From a virus: a DNA stretch of 36,254 bases. A model generated the notes under the pieces. It saw nothing but the letters and a program-made list of their open reading frames with translations. It did not search any database and was not told where the DNA came from. This document shows, piece after piece, positions 1,535 through 26,333 of this stretch (positions are counted from its first letter, which is position 1; every line of letters begins with the position of its first letter). The DNA is taken from positions 1 to 36,254 of the IMG/VR virus record IMGVR_UViG_3300035182_000709; one strand, 5' to 3'. Made by a program: the position numbers and the translations under genes.

Positions 1535-4500
1535 TTAGTACCTCCACATCTTGGTTGATGAATCGGCGTTCCACATCGCGGTGGTGTCGACGGCCGACCA
1601 CATATAGTCGGCGGAACTGCCATAGTTGATCTGCACCCACGGTCCCTTGGCGATGCCGACTGCGGCCACGCGGAGGATGGTGGCGCTGCCGTAGAGCGCT
1701 GTCGCTGTGTAGTTGCTGGTGGATGTCTCACCGGTGCGCGTCCAGGTCTGGCCATCGCTGGATTGTTCGATGATGTAGTAATCGGCCCACGGGCTAGGCT
1801 GCCAGGTCAGCAGCATCTTTTCGGGCGCGGCGGGCATTGAGCGGGTAGAGAGACCCAGAATGGAGGGCGCGTTGGTATAGCCGGCAAGTTGGCTGGTCTG
1901 GATGGTCGGCGCAATCTCGCCCGTCTCTGCGGTGTGGACGTTGGCATCTTCGTTGATCGCCTCGATCTCGGCCGAATAAAGCCCACGCGGACGGACGGCG
2001 ATGACACGGGCGGGCTGGCGCCAGGTATCGGCCCAGCCGAAGGCGTAATGCGTGCGTTCTTCGGTGCCGCCGGTGTATGACTCAAAACCCGGCACACCAG
2101 GAATGCACACTTGATTGGGTAGCGGGCCTGGATAGCAGGCGTACGGGCCGTAGACGCTGCCGTCCCGCTTGCGCAGTGCAATGTAATGGGTTCCGCTGCC
2201 CCATGTCAGAGGTTCGGATAGCGTCAGCGTTTCAAAGGTGCCAGTCCATAATTCGGCCGATCCCGTTGCCGCAACCGACAAAGTCCAGTGAGATGCCCCA
2301 GCGCCTGGATAAAATCGGTACATCAAGCGGTCGTTGCTGCCGAGTACCACGGCAATGATGGTGATCTTCCACCACGCCCCCCAAGACTCCACCGATACAC
2401 TATCGCCGGCCGTTACGATTTGATTAAACGCGCCGGTAGACGTGTCTACATTCGCGTACGTGTATTGCGGCGTACCCCCGCCGCCGCTGGCATAGCGGTC
2501 GGTCCGGATGGTCACAAAACGGCTGGAGATTGCGTCCTTACGCACAAAGAAACTTTGCGTGTATGCATTGCCGGAGATGACGGCTTCTTCCGGTGAGTAG
2601 ATGTAGCCATAAACGCTTGTGCTCGCATCTGTGACAATCGCGCCGTAGGTAACGCCATCCGGCCCGATTGATCCGGATGTTGGCGCACTAACGCCCACTG
2701 TCATCCAGGCGCTGACAGGGGCAATAGACTCGGAAACGTCTGCTGCTACCACCTCTCCACCCTGACCCCATGCCGGCATATCGTGCTGCACGGCAATAAG
2801 GTCACCGAAGCTGGGAATGAACCCCTCCATTTCGGTGCTGAACTTGATGAGCTTGCGCCGGTATCGGTTGCTCGCGGCCTGATACATGCCCTCGCGGAAA
2901 GCGTGGTCCCGGTTGGTTACGCCGAATAGTTCGACCTTGGCGGCGCGTGCTGCCGTGCTGCCCGGCAGCTTTGCACGGACCCGGCGCGGCGCCCAGTTCG
3001 TCGCGTCGAAATAGCCCACATCAATGGCATCGGCAGTGTCTGCTGTGGGCATCAAGTAATCAACGCTGAATGACCCCCGGGCAATATTGCGCATGCTGTA
3101 AAGCTGCACCGGCAGGGTTTGCGCCTGGTCGCGCATGATCCGAACAATGCCGGCCTGCTGGAAGGTCTTTGCGCGGCCAGCCGCCGCAATCTTTGAAACA
3201 GCCTCCCAGAAGCTGATGAAATTGTCGAAGCGGGCGTCGAAATGGTCGTCGCGGGCCGACCAGGTGGCGTCAAGTGCAAGCAAGGCCGGCAAGTCGATCT
3301 GTGCATCGGTCAGCCCGATCTGCTTGCATACATAGACGATGGGCCAGGCAATCGAGCGGGTGGCGGTGTTGGCACTCCAAGCCGTCCCGTTCCAGGTTGG
3401 AATCTTGCGGGTGGCGATGACGTTGACCTTGCGGCTGGCTTGCATCGACAGGTTGTTCGAGGCTCGCATCCGCATTGCCAGCAATGTCACATCGCCATAG
3501 GTACGCGAGTCGGGCAAATAGGCGCGGAGGCCGGCCCATGCAATGTCATGCCCATACGCCGTATCGGTCTGCTCGACATCGATTCGACGCGCCCGCACCT
3601 GATACCGGGCAGGCGAAATATTGTTGCGCTCGCTATACCGCTGCGGCGTGGTGGTAGCGGCCGAATAACTGGGGGCGGTCAACGTGAACCAGGCACCGAA
3701 TACCGTGCCTGAATCATCCACCGTGCGGGCCTCTACAACCGCTGCCAGAGAGATCATATCCAGCGCGCCGGTCGTCGCATCCGCGTGATACAGACCTCGC
3801 GGAAGAACGAAATCGACGCCTAGAAAGTTGGCCTGAGTGGCTGCTGCATTGGCTGTGAAAGGGCCAACCCAGGTCGAGACGGTGCAGGTACTCCCGGCGG
3901 CGATTGTGCCGCTGGCTGCTGTAGTGACCGTGAATGTATCGACAGTGGGCGCCGTGACCACCGTATACGTACCATCCAGCGCCCCACCGCTGGTGAAGTC
4001 CAGATAAACAGTGCTGCCCGTTGCCAGACCGTGTGCAGTAGCTGTCACAGTGACCGTGCTGCCGCTACGGGCGTAAGTGCCGGCGATACACGGCAGGTCT
4101 TGGCCGGAAACTTCGGTCGCTGACACCACATTCGCCGGGAACAGGGTCAGCGCGCCACCGGGCGGAATGATCTCGTAGGTGATCTCGGCAAAGCTGCTGA
4201 TCGGGGTGTCTTCGATGCGGATCGCCTCGATGTCGAACTGACCCCGGCCAATGCAGAACAACTGATAGAGGTATTGCTCATTCCCGGCGTACTCCTGGTA
4301 CGGCTGCGCGGCATAGTCCGGGTAGGCGAGCATGCGACCGAAATGCTCCGGGATGGCCGCCTCCAGCCGGGCTGCATTGCCCTGCGCTTGCAGGTTGTAG
4401 GTTGGCGACGGGGCGGCGAGGGCGGCGGCTTGTTGCGGGCTGGTGAGCTTGGGCGGTGGAATCAGTGCGTTGACCAGCATCATGCCGGCCATCGTGGAGC

Positions 4501-11954: not shown

Positions 11955-12313
11955 GCCAGGATTTCGGCCTTGCGACTGGCTGCCAGCTTACCCTTGCTGA
12001 TCAGGTAATCCACGCCAGCGATGACATCGGCGCTGTCCAGATCGATGCCATCACGGTTGGTGGCCACGCGCAGCAGCAGCAGTTGCGCGCCCACATCGCC
12101 CGCGCCGGAGTATGCCAGCGCAGATACGCCCGCCAGTTCAGCAGCGGTAAAACGGTCGCGGAATTCGGCGGCGTCGATCAGGCGCGGCAGAGTGGTTACA
12201 ACTGTGGGGCGTTCATCCGCGCTGTCGTACACATCAACCATGCCATCGTTACGCAGAGCGCCGCCGAACGGTGGCTGATCAGTCAGGAATTGATCAATAG
12301 TCAGGGTGCGCAT
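11951..12313 (-). CDS. Hypothetical head protein (Mu gp35-like position)
   Basis: This 120-aa protein starts at ATG 12313, which shares a base with the stop of the upstream gene (TGATG); a GGAG precedes it. The C-terminal part (SADVIAGVDYLISKGKLAA) is helical and the N-terminus reads TIDQFLTDQPPFGG. I do not recognise a named family. Its place between the capsid-region genes and DUF1320 corresponds to Mu gp35. Starts further upstream would overlap the preceding gene by 90 bases and have no ribosome-binding site. Confidence 0.65.
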   Translation of the reverse strand: MRTLTIDQFLTDQPPFGGALRNDGMVDVYDSADERPTVVTTLPRLIDAAEFRDRFTAAELAGVSALAYSGAGDVGAQLLLLRVATNRDGIDLDSADVIAGVDYLISKGKLAASRKAEILA

Positions 12314-13032
12314 CACATCACTCCGCGTTCCAGCCACAGGCTGAAATGGAAAATAGTTTGCGTGGTGGTTACCGCAGCATTTTGCGCAGAGAGGCGTAAC
12401 CAACAGTCTGTGGATAGGTCGGGGAGTGTGGCAACGGAGGATGGAGATGTATTGGCGCCAGACGCAAACACAGAGTTTGGCAAAGACCGCCGTTGTGCGT
12501 TGCTGGTAAACACGTTAATTTTATCGACAACCTGAACAATGTTACCTGTGCTGGTTGTCGTTGTAGTCGACAATAATGGAGATGATCCATCCACCCCCGG
12601 CGTGGCGGATAACCGCCCCCGCAATGTACGTGCGCCAGCATCCAGCGTGCCGCTGAACTCCTCAAAGGATATTTGCCGAATGATGTCGCCGGGCTTGATC
12701 GTGCCGCCCGGAATCAGTATCTCCGGCCCGATGAAGGTCTCGGCCGTACCGGGGGCAACGGCCAGGCCAGAATCGCCAAAACTGAGCGCTTGCAAGCAGG
12801 TAATGGCGTAACGGGCATTTGCGTTATCGCTCGACTTGTTGACGTACACAGCATCAATGGCCGTGATGCGGTAGCTGGCGCCGTTGCGGTAGGGGCCAAA
12901 CCTCCGGACCACGTTGGCCGGAACGGCGTGTGTTGCACCGCCAATTTCTACAATTGCTTGACCGACGACATCCAGCCTCTCGCCAGACTCCAGCCGGTTG
13001 GTATGGGTGTCGCCTGGGTTAATCATCGGCAT
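12313..13032 (-). CDS. Hypothetical structural protein, probable head decoration
   Basis: This 239-aa protein follows the small gene behind the capsid gene. It begins INPGDTHTNRLESGERLDVVG and is rich in beta-prone, Thr/Ser segments, including a TTTTTSTGN run near residue 160. The C-terminal strand set (CWLRLSAQNAAVTTTQTIFH) looks like a structural domain. I do not recognise a family. Position and composition suggest a capsid decoration or head-fibre protein; this is an inference. Confidence 0.6.
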   Translation of the reverse strand: MPMINPGDTHTNRLESGERLDVVGQAIVEIGGATHAVPANVVRRFGPYRNGASYRITAIDAVYVNKSSDNANARYAITCLQALSFGDSGLAVAPGTAETFIGPEILIPGGTIKPGDIIRQISFEEFSGTLDAGARTLRGRLSATPGVDGSSPLLSTTTTTSTGNIVQVVDKINVFTSNAQRRSLPNSVFASGANTSPSSVATLPDLSTDCWLRLSAQNAAVTTTQTIFHFSLWLERGVM

Positions 13033-13043
13033 GGTTTACACCC

Positions 13044-13241
13044 TCAGGTTTTTCCGCGTGACGCGGTTTTGGGATTTGCGGCCTTGGCCGCAGGCGCCGC
13101 ATCTGGCGCCTGCGGTAGCTGCTCCACTGCCAGGGTATGCAATTCTGGGGCATATTGATCGGCATCGATCACCACAAACGCCCCTTGCGTAGCGGGGTCT
13201 GTGGCAACGATGCGCAGGGTTTTAGGCTGCGCCATGATCAT
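13044..13241 (-). CDS. Small hypothetical protein after the capsid gene
   Basis: This 65-aa ORF begins in the TGATG overlap with the capsid stop (a second ATG, at 13235, is possible). The first half is beta-prone (LRIVATDPATQGAFVVIDAD). The second half is an alanine-, proline- and lysine-rich tail ending in SRGKT. It resembles the small proteins often found beside phage capsid genes, but no function is recognised. Confidence 0.6.
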   Translation of the reverse strand: MIMAQPKTLRIVATDPATQGAFVVIDADQYAPELHTLAVEQLPQAPDAAPAAKAANPKTASRGKT

Positions 13242-14386
13242 CAGCCCAACAACAGCGCGCAGTGTTCCGGCTTCATGACCGCCACGCCCCAGCAGGCTGC
13301 GACCTCATATTGCACCTGGCGATACTGGCGATACTCGGAGACCTCGAACGAGAGGCCGGAAACCGGGTCGGTGACCACGGTGCGATCATCGGCCATGTCA
13401 CGGCCATCCGGCAACGCGGGCAGGCGCTGCGCCAGCACGATGGCAGAGCGGCTAAACGCCATATTGCGCGCGCTGTTGCCCAGCACGGTAATTGCGGTAG
13501 CCGATGCCGGGATGGCCTGCTGCAAGCCGGGCGCGGCCAGAGTGATGCTGCCACCACTGACCGCAGCCGTGCCGCTGGCGACCACGTATTTGTTGGTGTC
13601 GCCAGCAAACGTGATGACATCACCAGCCAGGATGGCGCCGGTACCGGCGGCGGCCAGCGTGATAGCGGTAGCACCCACGGCGTAGCCAGCGGCGTTGGTC
13701 GTCGCGCTGGCGCCGGTGCCCTTGGTAAAAGTGCGTACCTGGGCGGATTCGCGGATTGCCATACCGTGCACATCCATCAACACCCCGCGCCGCAACAGGC
13801 TGTCATCGCGGCTGGCCGCCATGATCTGCTTGCCGCGCAAGTTGGCGCCGGCGGCGGTATTGAGCACCAGCGTCAGCGTGCTTTCATTGGCGCCGTTATC
13901 CATCAGGATTTTGCGCACCAGCGCAGAATCGGTGTAATCACCCGATGTACCAAACGGCGTTGTTCCGGGGGTACCAGTCGCCCGGCTGGAAGCAATATGC
14001 AACGCGGCCAGGTCAGACTCGATCTCGTTGACCAGCGTGCGGATTGCCTGCGAAATTTGCGCCAGACGGATAGCCGCCTGCCCAGGGCCGCCGTTGACTG
14101 ACAAGGTCTCCTCGCCGGCCCAGCGAAATGGCACACGGCGCGCCTTGGTGATGGCAATGGTACGGTTACCGATGGCCTGGTCGCCATCGTTTGGCGGCGT
14201 GACAGCCGGCGTTATGTCGGTAGCGCTGGAAGCCGGCGCGACAAACGAGCGCACCGTCTGATTCAGCGCTGCACGGCTGGCGACGGCGTCTATGGTCACG
14301 CTGGGGATAAACCCGGTCAGCTCGCGCGAGACGACATCCAGCGCCTGGTAAATATCCGGTATCAGGTTGGTGAGGGTATTGGCCAT
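13241..14386 (-). CDS. Major capsid protein (P22-coat-like)
   Basis: This 381-aa protein is the major head subunit. It starts MANTLTNLIPDIYQALDVVSRELTG, typical of P22 gp5-type coat proteins. An inserted beta domain (about residues 230-290, with GDVITFAGDTNKYVVASG) is characteristic of that family, and the C-terminus returns to the HK97 fold (VSEYRQYRQVQYEVAACWGV). It lies directly after the protease/scaffold gene, as the Mu T gene does, but it does not resemble Mu T. This suggests capsid-gene replacement within a Mu-type head operon. Confidence 0.8.
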   Translation of the reverse strand: MANTLTNLIPDIYQALDVVSRELTGFIPSVTIDAVASRAALNQTVRSFVAPASSATDITPAVTPPNDGDQAIGNRTIAITKARRVPFRWAGEETLSVNGGPGQAAIRLAQISQAIRTLVNEIESDLAALHIASSRATGTPGTTPFGTSGDYTDSALVRKILMDNGANESTLTLVLNTAAGANLRGKQIMAASRDDSLLRRGVLMDVHGMAIRESAQVRTFTKGTGASATTNAAGYAVGATAITLAAAGTGAILAGDVITFAGDTNKYVVASGTAAVSGGSITLAAPGLQQAIPASATAITVLGNSARNMAFSRSAIVLAQRLPALPDGRDMADDRTVVTDPVSGLSFEVSEYRQYRQVQYEVAACWGVAVMKPEHCALLLG

Positions 14387-15634: not shown

Positions 15635-15813
15635 ACTGAATGCTATGGCGGTAGCTGCACCGATCAGCAGCCACTGCCGCCCACCTTACCCGTGGGCGTT
15701 TCCTTTTCTGGTCGGGTCGAGAGCGCCGAATACAACACCCGCAAGGGGAATGAGCGCCGGGCTTCCATAGAGCCCAGTTGAGACCCGACCACCCGCCGAC
15801 TACTAACCGGCGG
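15635..15813 (+). ncRNA. C4-antisense-RNA-like structured leader
   Basis: The region folds strongly. CGCCCAC (15678-15684) pairs with GTGGGCG (15692-15698), followed by a pyrimidine/T-rich run. GGTCGGGTC (from about 15710) pairs with GACCCGACC (ending about 15790) around two inner hairpins (CCC-GCAA-GGG type and GGGCT/AGCCC). CCGCCG then pairs with CGGCGG (to 15813). Order, and the segment TTTCCTTTTCTGGTCGGGTC, resemble the C4 RNA leaders that control icd/ant-type genes in P1- and P4-like elements. A 42-codon ORF from ATG 15644 overlaps the structure. The C4 assignment is from memory and needs a covariance search. Confidence 0.5.
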
Positions 15814-24135: not shown

Positions 24136-24367
24136 CGGATTTACCCTCCGGTTTGTTGACGCTGTAGCGCATCGACAGCCACTTGCTGGCAGTCGCCGAC
24201 GCGCCTACCACGCCCAGGTAGATCAACCAGATATCAGCCGTGGCAGTGCCCTTGTAGACCGTCCACGCAAAGGCCAGCGTACCGGTCAAGTAGGCCACAT
24301 TGGCCCACAGCTTGGAATGCGACATCTGTCCGGTACCGGCGTCGCGGATCAGGTCTGAGGGTTTCAT
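24125..24367 (-). CDS. Putative holin (DUF2644-like)
   Basis: This 80-aa protein starts at ATG 24367 in an ATGA overlap with the endolysin stop. It reads MKPSDLIRDAGTGQMSHSKL, then two hydrophobic helices (NVAYLTGTLAFAWTVY and DIWLIYLGVVGASATASKW). That layout matches DUF2644-type phage holins. It would form the membrane lesion that releases the amidase. Confidence 0.75.
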   Translation of the reverse strand: MKPSDLIRDAGTGQMSHSKLWANVAYLTGTLAFAWTVYKGTATADIWLIYLGVVGASATASKWLSMRYSVNKPEGKSDVA

Positions 24368-24942
24368 GCCAGGCTTCCCGGTAGGGCCTTCATGCCACCG
24401 GCCAGCCAGTCGGACACATCGAAACCAGGGCAGGCCTTCGCCACACCGGGGATTTCGTTGTGGCCGCAGATTCCGGGAGTAACGACGTAGCGTTTTCCGT
24501 CCCGGATGCTGAGCGTTGGCGGGATTGCGGGGATGTTCAGGCGCTTGGCAATGCCGCCGACGGTCTGCGCCAACATGGCCCATTGCAGGTCGGTGAATTT
24601 GTCCGTGCCGACCAGGCAGATGCCCAAGCTGGCGGCATTCCAGCCCTCGACCTGCGCGCCAACTTCGTCCTCTGCGCGTCCGCTGAACACGGCGGCGTTG
24701 CGGGCGATGATGTAGTGATAACCGATGGCTTCAAGCGACGGATTCTGACGGCCGCGCCAGTAGGTGTCGCGCTTGAAACCCCGCGCCTTGTGCCAGGCGT
24801 CGATCTCCATCACCGGACTGCGAAATCCGGGCGTGCCGTACTGACCGGAGAACAACGTGCGGTCATTGGGCGACGCGCTGCAATGAATGACAATCAGCCG
24901 GATGTTGCGGGCTGGGGCGGGAATGGGGGCTGGCGTAGGCAT
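24364..24942 (-). CDS. Endolysin, N-acetylmuramoyl-L-alanine amidase
   Basis: This 192-aa amidase is of the T7-lysozyme type. The zinc ligands are the His in VIHCSAS (residue 20), the His in ICGHNEIPG and the Cys in KACPGFDV near the C-terminus. It cuts the amide bond between muramic acid and the stem peptide. It has no signal peptide, so it needs the holin. ATG 24942 is taken as start; a GTG at 24960 is in frame, and neither has a Shine-Dalgarno. Its first codons contain a partial copy of the dyad repeat that lies upstream. It is the first gene of the lysis/packaging block. Confidence 0.9.
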   Translation of the reverse strand: MPTPAPIPAPARNIRLIVIHCSASPNDRTLFSGQYGTPGFRSPVMEIDAWHKARGFKRDTYWRGRQNPSLEAIGYHYIIARNAAVFSGRAEDEVGAQVEGWNAASLGICLVGTDKFTDLQWAMLAQTVGGIAKRLNIPAIPPTLSIRDGKRYVVTPGICGHNEIPGVAKACPGFDVSDWLAGGMKALPGSLA

Positions 24943-24979
24943 GGCGGACAGTTTCGCCACGCGCGCGCGATGGGGGGAT

Positions 24980-25000: not shown

Positions 25001-25033
25001 GCAATAAAAATCCCCGGTTTTTTAGGCCGGGGC
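25001..25033 (-). terminator. Rho-independent terminator facing the lysis block
   Basis: On the minus strand CCCCGG pairs with CCGGGG (25032-25027 and 25017-25012) and is followed by ATTTTTATT. It would stop early or middle transcription before the late dyad at 24980-24995, insulating the lysis genes in the lysogen. Confidence 0.75.
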
Positions 25034-25135
25034 GGAAGCCGCTGTTAGGCAGTGGCGGGGAAAACAAAATCCTGTGTCCAATAACATGGCTATTGGCAGG
25101 TTATTGGTCAGATGGGGGATAACATGCGTTGGGCG

Positions 25136-25378
25136 TCATGGTTTCACCAGCATTCTGGCGGTGCTCAGAGCATCGGTAAGCTGTGCTATCGGCACTTCTA
25201 TGCACTGCTCGAGTTCCGTTTTTGTGTCGAACGTCGTGAAAATCGCCACACCATCGGACAGTTGAATCGTGGTGTCGCCAATGTGAAAAATAATACAGTC
25301 CATTCCATTTCCTCCAAGCCCAACATTTAGGTCAAGCGGGACGCTCGAACATGCCACTTCACTTCGTAGTTGGTTCAT
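25136..25378 (-). CDS. Small cassette protein, unknown
   Basis: This ORF of about 80 aa starts at ATG 25378 (a GTG lies three bases earlier) with AAGGGG about 11 nt upstream. It is beta-prone in the middle (MDCIIFHIGDTTIQLSDGVA) and acidic later. Its stop codon touches the left direct repeat. No family is recognised. Base composition differs from the phage genes around it. Confidence 0.5.
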   Translation of the reverse strand: MNQLRSEVACSSVPLDLNVGLGGNGMDCIIFHIGDTTIQLSDGVAIFTTFDTKTELEQCIEVPIAQLTDALSTARMLVKP

Positions 25379-25401
25379 CACTCGCGCCCCTTACCAAAGC
25401 G

Positions 25402-25584
25402 TTATGAGGTTGCCTCAATGGCAAGGTTCAGCGGTGTAATCACGTCGCCAATAGCAATGCGGAGCATTGATGCATCTTCTTCGCCCAATGCGTTCAAACC
25501 TCCTGCTAAATCCTTCAACGATTTCAAGCGTTCATCCGCGAGAGCAATCATTTTCTTTACTTCATCCAAACTGGGATAGTCCAT
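25402..25584 (-). CDS. Small helical cassette protein, unknown
   Basis: This 60-aa ORF starts at ATG 25584 with GGAG about 9 nt upstream. It reads MDYPSLDEVKKMIALADERL and then a helical segment, as expected for a small regulator or antitoxin-like protein, but no family is recognised. Its start shares the CCATGG palindrome with the plus-strand ORF at 25583. Confidence 0.5.
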   Translation of the reverse strand: MDYPSLDEVKKMIALADERLKSLKDLAGGLNALGEEDASMLRIAIGDVITPLNLAIEATS

Positions 25585-25729
25585 GGCAGCACACTCCGAA
25601 AACGCGGTTGATAAACTGGTTAAAAAACTTCAAGAACGGCACGAATACATTGTTTCAACAATGCGTGGTAGGCCAGTGAAATCCGATGAAATCCATGAAC
25701 AATTACCCAGAGACACACAGGGTTGTTGA
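25583..25729 (+). CDS. Small cassette ORF (48 aa)
   Basis: This ORF starts in the same CCATGG as the divergent ORF on the other strand. It encodes a charged helical peptide (NAVDKLVKKLQERHEYIV, then MRGRPVKSDEIHEQLP). The ribosome-binding site is weak. It overlaps the next plus-strand ORF by 44 nt in the +1 frame. Real expression is plausible but not shown. Confidence 0.4.
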   Translation: MAAHSENAVDKLVKKLQERHEYIVSTMRGRPVKSDEIHEQLPRDTQGC

Positions 25730-25811
25730 TCCTTCAGAAATACGCATTGCAGTTGATGATTTCGCAACCATCCTGAAAGAAATAAAGCTAACGCTTGGCA
25801 AGAAAAAATGA
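25686..25811 (+). CDS. Small cassette ORF (41 aa)
   Basis: This ORF runs from ATG 25686 (or ATG 25695) to TGA 25809-25811. It encodes a mixed peptide (NNYPETHRVVDPSEIRIAVD, then a lysine-rich end). Its stop lies five bases before the big palindrome, the spacing expected of a gene and its attC in an integron cassette. Unknown function. Confidence 0.4.
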   Translation: MKSMNNYPETHRVVDPSEIRIAVDDFATILKEIKLTLGKKK

Positions 25812-25816
25812 CCCAT

Positions 25817-25874
25817 AACGAATAAGGTTAGATCGTGCGAAGCGTAGCGGAGCCACGATCTAACCTTATTCGTT
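25817..25874. repeat. 21-bp perfect palindrome with 16-nt loop
   Basis: AACGAATAAGGTTAGATCGTG (25817-25837, 21 bases; key ends AACGAATAAG and GATCGTG) is exactly complementary to 25854-25874. The loop is 25838-25853. No T-run follows, so it is not a simple terminator. It is followed directly by GTTGGGC. The loop bases CGAAGCGTAGCGGAGC are of the kind common in REP-like and some attC elements. Confidence 0.85.
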
Positions 25875-25907
25875 GGGCGTTGGCGTGCATGGCGTTCCTT
25901 TCAGTGG

Positions 25908-26333
25908 TTAAAACAAACTGCCCTGTGTGGTTTCGATCACCGTGCCGCCGCTGTCGGGTCGGTTGACGATGCTGGTTACGGTGCGCCAGTCGTAGTAATA
26001 CGGCGGCCGGGCGGCCATGTCCTGGATGACACTGCGCGATGTTTCTCCGGCGCGGGTGCGGCGGTCGTATTCGGCGCGCATGTCGTCCTGGTAGGCGATG
26101 CGCAGAGCGTCTTTGCACTGCGGCACACGCAACGGCGTGCTGCGGTACATGCGCGCCAGGGTCTCGGCGGCGGTCTCACCTAATATCTCTGCCAGGTGCG
26201 CGCGCGTGGCGGCGCGGTTGGGGAAAATCTCGCGTCCACCCGAGTGCTGCACCAGCGCCAGCATGGCATCCTGGCCGATGATCTGGGACAGCAGCACGGC
26301 ATTCTTTGGCAGGTGCGACAGGTTGAGTTTCAC
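25908..26333 (-). CDS. Mor-family middle/late transcription activator
   Basis: This 141-aa protein has the Mor/C pattern. A dimerisation half (QIIGQDAMLALVQHSGGREI, then LAEILGETAAETLARMY) is followed by a DNA-binding half (PLRVPQCKDALRIAYQDDM, then SRSVIQDMAA). In Mu, Mor activates the middle promoter and C the late ones. Only one such gene is visible here, so it may drive the three late blocks directly. It starts at GTG 26333 in a 4-bp overlap with GemA. It is the last gene of the early operon. Confidence 0.78.
   Translation of the reverse strand: MKLNLSHLPKNAVLLSQIIGQDAMLALVQHSGGREIFPNRAATRAHLAEILGETAAETLARMYRSTPLRVPQCKDALRIAYQDDMRAEYDRRTRAGETSRSVIQDMAARPPYYYDWRTVTSIVNRPDSGGTVIETTQGSLF

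Follow-up and report, generated by a model that had tools for sequence, protein, structure and literature searches.

What is the 744-bp segment that, in a Mu-like phage, separates the late activator gene from the lysis genes, and how did it come to be there? The stretch of DNA analysed here (the window) is a 36,254-base virus record whose PHROG matches, among them Gam and transposase genes, are those of a Mu-like phage. The original prediction described an AT-richer segment with CGTTGGGCGT repeats 744 bp apart, placed between a Mor-type activator and lysis genes, and both points were borne out. The window contains exactly two copies of CGTTGGGCGT, at 25127 and 25871 (0.14 copies are expected, and two copies were reached in 2 of 100 shuffles), and the GC content of the segment was 0.51 and 0.46 in two 500-bp bins, compared with about 0.62 in the surroundings. 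The flanking phage genes encode an amidase on the lysis side (24364–24960, minus strand; phrog_822, E = 3e-33) and a Mor-type late transcription activator (25908–26333, minus strand; phrog_836, E = 4e-19); the ORF that comes next after mor starts at 25890 on the minus strand and extends into the inserted DNA. A terminator with a 9-nt loop was seen by eye before the amidase gene (about 25010–25040, minus strand), and we do not claim it because the terminator scan did not list it. A 25-nt repeat, GGGGGATGCTGGCNTAGGCCAGCGG, is present in three copies in the window (11506, 15532, and 24973), each between gene blocks.

The segment had been read as one integron-like cassette, to be checked by an attC covariance search. 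We built a covariance model (R1) from 47 attCs of arrays beside integron integrases; the training set left out the attC type resembling that of the window, and R1 recovered left-out attCs of the contig G096 at 39–74 bits. In the window, R1 gave a single significant match (38.8 bits, E = 6e-7), to a site that the prediction had missed. This site, attC1 (25318–25407, plus strand), consists of R'' (GCCCAAC, 25318–25324), L'' (GGTCAAGCGGGACGC, 25330–25344), L' (GCGCCCCTTACC, 25384–25395), and R' (G|TTATGA, 25401–25407), and its L'' and L' pair fully except for three extrahelical bases, which all belong to L''. The predicted DNA fold of the attC1 strand was not more stable than those of shuffled sequences. 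This architecture, with R' placed at 25401, divides the 744 bp into two cassettes of 273 and 471 bp; the integron origin and the exact G|TTRRRY boundaries were upheld, but the notion of a single cassette was not.

Cassette 1 (25129–25401, plus strand), which was delimited by its end match, its attC, and a copy in another virus described below, begins with TTGGGCGT after G25128 and ends with G25401 of its own attC; its 5' end, TTGGGC, matches GCCCAA of its own R'' over 6 nt. Cassette 2 (25402–25872, plus strand) begins with TTATGAGG, and its 5' end, TTATG, matches CATAA of its own R'' (CCATAAC, 25813–25819) over 5 nt, position 25402 being the best match to this R'' among 76 GTT starts in 4 kb. 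Both cassettes therefore show G|TTRRRY boundaries and a 5' end complementary to their own R'', and cassette 1 is the only one in the window having an attC with R'', L'', L', R', and extrahelical bases. Judging from the relatives of a single gene, the host of the phage would belong to the family of a Thiobacillus MAG (G002) that holds a related amidase, and an integron integrase was found in 74 of the 117 genomes of that family. In integrase-adjacent arrays of this host-related family, a match of at least 5 nt between 5' end and R'' was present in 38 of 46 cassettes, whereas 2000 shuffles gave 9.1 of 46 on average and never more than 18. The closest relatives of attC1 are sites within a complete integron on a betaproteobacterial chromosome: BLAST showed 85% identity to a site on G096, a contig with an integrase at 2828–3772 and at least six attCs. 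A second site, in G075, which is outside the set shown to have an integrase, was 74% identical; both sites come from Burkholderiales genomes.

The segment was predicted to carry four tiny separate ORFs, a count that has to be corrected to three genes. ORF1 of cassette 1 (25136–25303, minus strand; 55 aa, MDCIIFHIGD...) has GGAGG before its ATG and gave no match in Pfam or PHROG. Cassette 2 carries ORF2 (25402–25584, minus strand; 60 aa), a member of the phage family phrog_22889 (E = 1.3e-5), and a broken gene (25583–25811, plus strand) to which both plus-strand ORFs belong: a 2-bp deletion near 25695 has frameshifted what is a 76-aa gene in the second virus, where the intact form matches phrog_22692 (E = 1.1e-15). 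Our initial reading of the plus-strand ORF as spurious was dropped after this protein match. The cargo of cassette 2 thus comprises two phage protein families, one of them broken in the window. Searches of the 117 genomes of the host-related family yielded no homologue of ORF1 or of ORF2, and the cassette DNA had no match among plasmids and phage records.

The second virus, reached via ORF2, is the viral contig IMGVR_UViG_3300036715_000408 (37,432 bp; hereafter G512), a siphophage with genes for tape measure, tail, and RecT-like proteins (these three recognized by ORF reading), RusA, a helicase, and a YdaS-like protein. Its nucleotide similarity to the window is limited to 25017–25819 (the first 6.8 kb of G512 were compared), and within this region cassettes 1 and 2 differ at 5 of 691 positions. 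The ORF1 protein is identical, the single nucleotide difference being synonymous, and ORF2 is 100% identical in G512, compared with 50% in the viral contig L239. The flank differs at 8 of 112 positions, all between 25027 and 25079, and is thus more diverged than the cassettes (Fisher p = 8e-5). Its last part (25080–25128, plus strand), which ends with GGATAACATGCG|TT, has no difference from G512, a hint that it may be an attI-like receptor site. It had no clear similarity to host attI regions and only one weak 33-bp match in 399 genomes of the order; an attC of an earlier cassette was considered for this flank and rejected, with no pairing by eye and no model match. Cassette 2 of G512 ends in a canonical attC (49.5 bits with R1), followed by a third cassette with its attC, so that the array is longer there. 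At its opposite end, the G512 contig again has the end of cassette 1, here joined to a different cassette, with the change occurring just after G|TT; the repeat measures exactly 127 bp and may be an assembly k-mer, and we therefore regard it as an assembly branch and not as proof of two copies. A second cluster of five attC matches lies at about 30.5–32.0 kb of G512 (L245, 12508–13964), on the strand opposite to the first.

A precise empty site in a related prophage, another expectation of the original prediction, was not found. The nearest relative spanning the slot, L226 (MuA 84%), fills it with a Rha-like regulator flanked by two small genes (11963–13268) and has no attC there. Because L226 carries other genes at this place, the slot between the activator and the lysis genes is variable. 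When the sides of the window are joined, the predicted empty site would read ...GGATAACATGCG followed by TTGGGCGTTGGCGTGCATGG.... The cassette idea was to be given up if no attC scored and all relatives carried the same segment without a precise empty site; an attC does score, and L226 is without the segment. R1 also gave attC matches in three more Mu-like contigs among the fetched loci, namely L044 (1636–2708; three matches, one weak), L228 (11694–12178; two), and L047 (6528–6590; one). The attC orientation opposes that of the neighbouring phage genes in all six arrays (the window, the two regions of G512, L044, L228, and L047), which, with six arrays judged by eye and an uncorrected two-sided value of 0.03, is a hint only. 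A comparison of ORF direction between phage and native cassettes (p = 0.013) was set aside, since choosing the longest ORF gives the wrong assignment for the cassettes of the window itself.

At the end of cassette 2 the window and G512 part company. The palindrome there had been taken for the attC of the cassette; the 21-bp perfect inverted repeat is real, but its role as attC was not sustained, as it has no attC-model score and G512 has a canonical attC at this place. The palindrome (25817–25874) has arms at 25817–25837 and 25854–25874, a 16-nt loop, and a DNA fold with z = −7.8; with R1 it gave no significant score, and at most a partial match of 11 bits with filters off. Between R'' CCATAAC and R' GTTGGGC the window sequence is wholly unlike that of G512, the R'' and R' core being the same, so the palindrome replaces the interior of the attC. 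Its exact pattern was found among viral contigs only in one that is near-identical. Hairpins of the same family (TAACGAATAAGGTTAGATCGTG...) are present in many Burkholderiales genomes, and many copies continue rightward into conserved sequence. In L120, L122, and L126 the right side runs into an IS91-type transposase gene, and the L120 protein matches Y2_Tnp and Zn_Tnp_IS91; in G168 two hairpin copies bound a 2,453-bp repeat. The IS91-like elements of L120, L122, L126, L163/L164, and L202 have their hairpin end on betaproteobacterial attC R'' boxes.

Because the hairpin sits on R'' boxes in IS91-like elements, that of the window stands at a typical element site, without the element. We lean slightly towards the view that an IS91-like element once targeted the R'' of cassette 2 and, on its later deletion, left the palindrome as a remnant, or else that the palindrome is a small non-autonomous relative of such an element. 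The TAAC|GAATAAGG junction and the left arm are the same as in intact elements (Y2_Tnp, Zn_Tnp_IS91), the hairpin family abuts Y2 transposase genes, and the hairpin lies at cassette ends in L120 and L128 (circular matches of 11 and 10 nt). Unlike the IS91 end (GAACCGTTTGTTGGAC), however, the window palindrome has a right arm fully complementary to the left, no IS91 sequence follows it, and the segment lacks a Y2 transposase gene, none of its ORFs having a Pfam match above the cut-off. IS91-like hairpin ends apparently re-form an attC-like site at R'' boxes, and a hairpin of this kind sitting on an attC is a natural test of such re-formation by a transposon end.

Taken with the shared cassettes, these features very probably mean that the segment represents two integron cassettes, standing without an integrase in a variable slot of a Mu-like phage, with phage genes as cargo; they would have been moved by a host integrase in trans. 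Cassette 1 keeps its canonical attC, and a perfect hairpin of the IS91-like end type stands in place of the R''–R' interior of the cassette 2 attC. In the proposed mechanism, the bottom strand of attC, once folded, would be the substrate on which a host integron integrase acts in trans, moving cassettes between phage genomes and host arrays. No integron integrase was detected in the window record (TIGR02249) or in G512. The window has neither the intI gene of a complete integron nor more than a presumptive attI-like flank. As in a CALIN, there is no nearby integrase; a CALIN has at least two attC sites, of which the window has one canonical and G512 has at least ten matches. In its attC architecture the segment resembles the sedentary chromosomal integrons of betaproteobacteria (L175–L210, G096), which, unlike it, adjoin a chromosomal integrase. 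Counting against our reading are the lack of an empty site, the non-canonical attC of cassette 2, the assignment of the host from a single gene, and the fold of attC1 when compared with shuffles.

Simple insertion at one G|TT of a Mu-like phage does not explain everything, because the left flank is common to G512, and homologous recombination between phages would also explain the shared cassettes. There is a real chance, although we rate it below even, that the cassettes are inert relics of a host integron that reached both phages by homologous or illegitimate recombination, with no integrase action in the phage. The shared left flank, the loss of the canonical attC2 and the breakage of one gene in the window, and the missing integrase all fit this alternative, and Qi et al. 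(2023, PMC9892861) have raised illegitimate recombination for attC clusters in other phages. It does not readily account for a flank more diverged than the cassettes, for the joining of the cassette 1 end to two different cassettes in the G512 assembly with the switch just after G|TT, or for ORF1 and ORF2 proteins that are unchanged.

The palindrome might itself serve as a hairpin-swapped attC, in which R'' and R' are kept around a perfect stem without extrahelical bases; such a site would be expected to abolish strand choice and to permit insertion in either orientation. The AAC and GTT boxes are intact at both ends, only the interior differs from G512, and one copy of the hairpin family lies inside an integrase-adjacent array (L202). 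We nevertheless consider a functional site unlikely, given that the palindrome has no attC-model score and that solitary perfect palindromes of the family occur away from detected attCs in G070, G086, and G318. An element bounded by REP or REPIN sequences, the rival raised by the original prediction on the strength of the perfect palindrome at one end, is rejected as highly improbable, since there is a single palindrome and none at the left end, and the internal attC and the comparison with G512 explain the boundaries.

Integron cassettes have been known since 2023 from a few phage genomes, and in the assay of Qi et al. (2023, PMC9892861) IntI1 recombined five of the six phage attCs tested. 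Like those phage CALINs, the segment has attC gene cassettes in a phage genome with no integrase, recognized here from its sequence; unlike them, it lies in a Mu-like phage, has only one canonical attC, includes phage protein families in its cargo, and shares nearly identical cassettes with an unrelated phage. Two phages that are unrelated and lack an integrase, one Mu-like and the other a siphophage, carry the same two cassettes with phage-gene cargo. Because the cassettes are almost identical in an unrelated virus, the findings suggest that phages of these bacteria trade genes via the bacterial cassette system. Should their movement be the work of a host integrase, integrons would serve phages as a route of gene exchange in addition to storing genes for bacteria, and phage genes would join the list of cassette cargo. 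More tentatively, and with doubt outweighing belief, unrelated phages of integron-bearing betaproteobacteria may share a pool of phage-gene cassettes with antisense attCs, shuffled by host integrases, the host integron being the exchange platform. An Rfam search of the window returned no attC family, and its sole match lies outside the segment, between phage genes and with no attC match nearby: sRNA-Xcc1 (RF02221, 56 bits; 15710–15798, plus strand), an sRNA that Xanthomonas integron cassettes are known to carry (PMC12444791).
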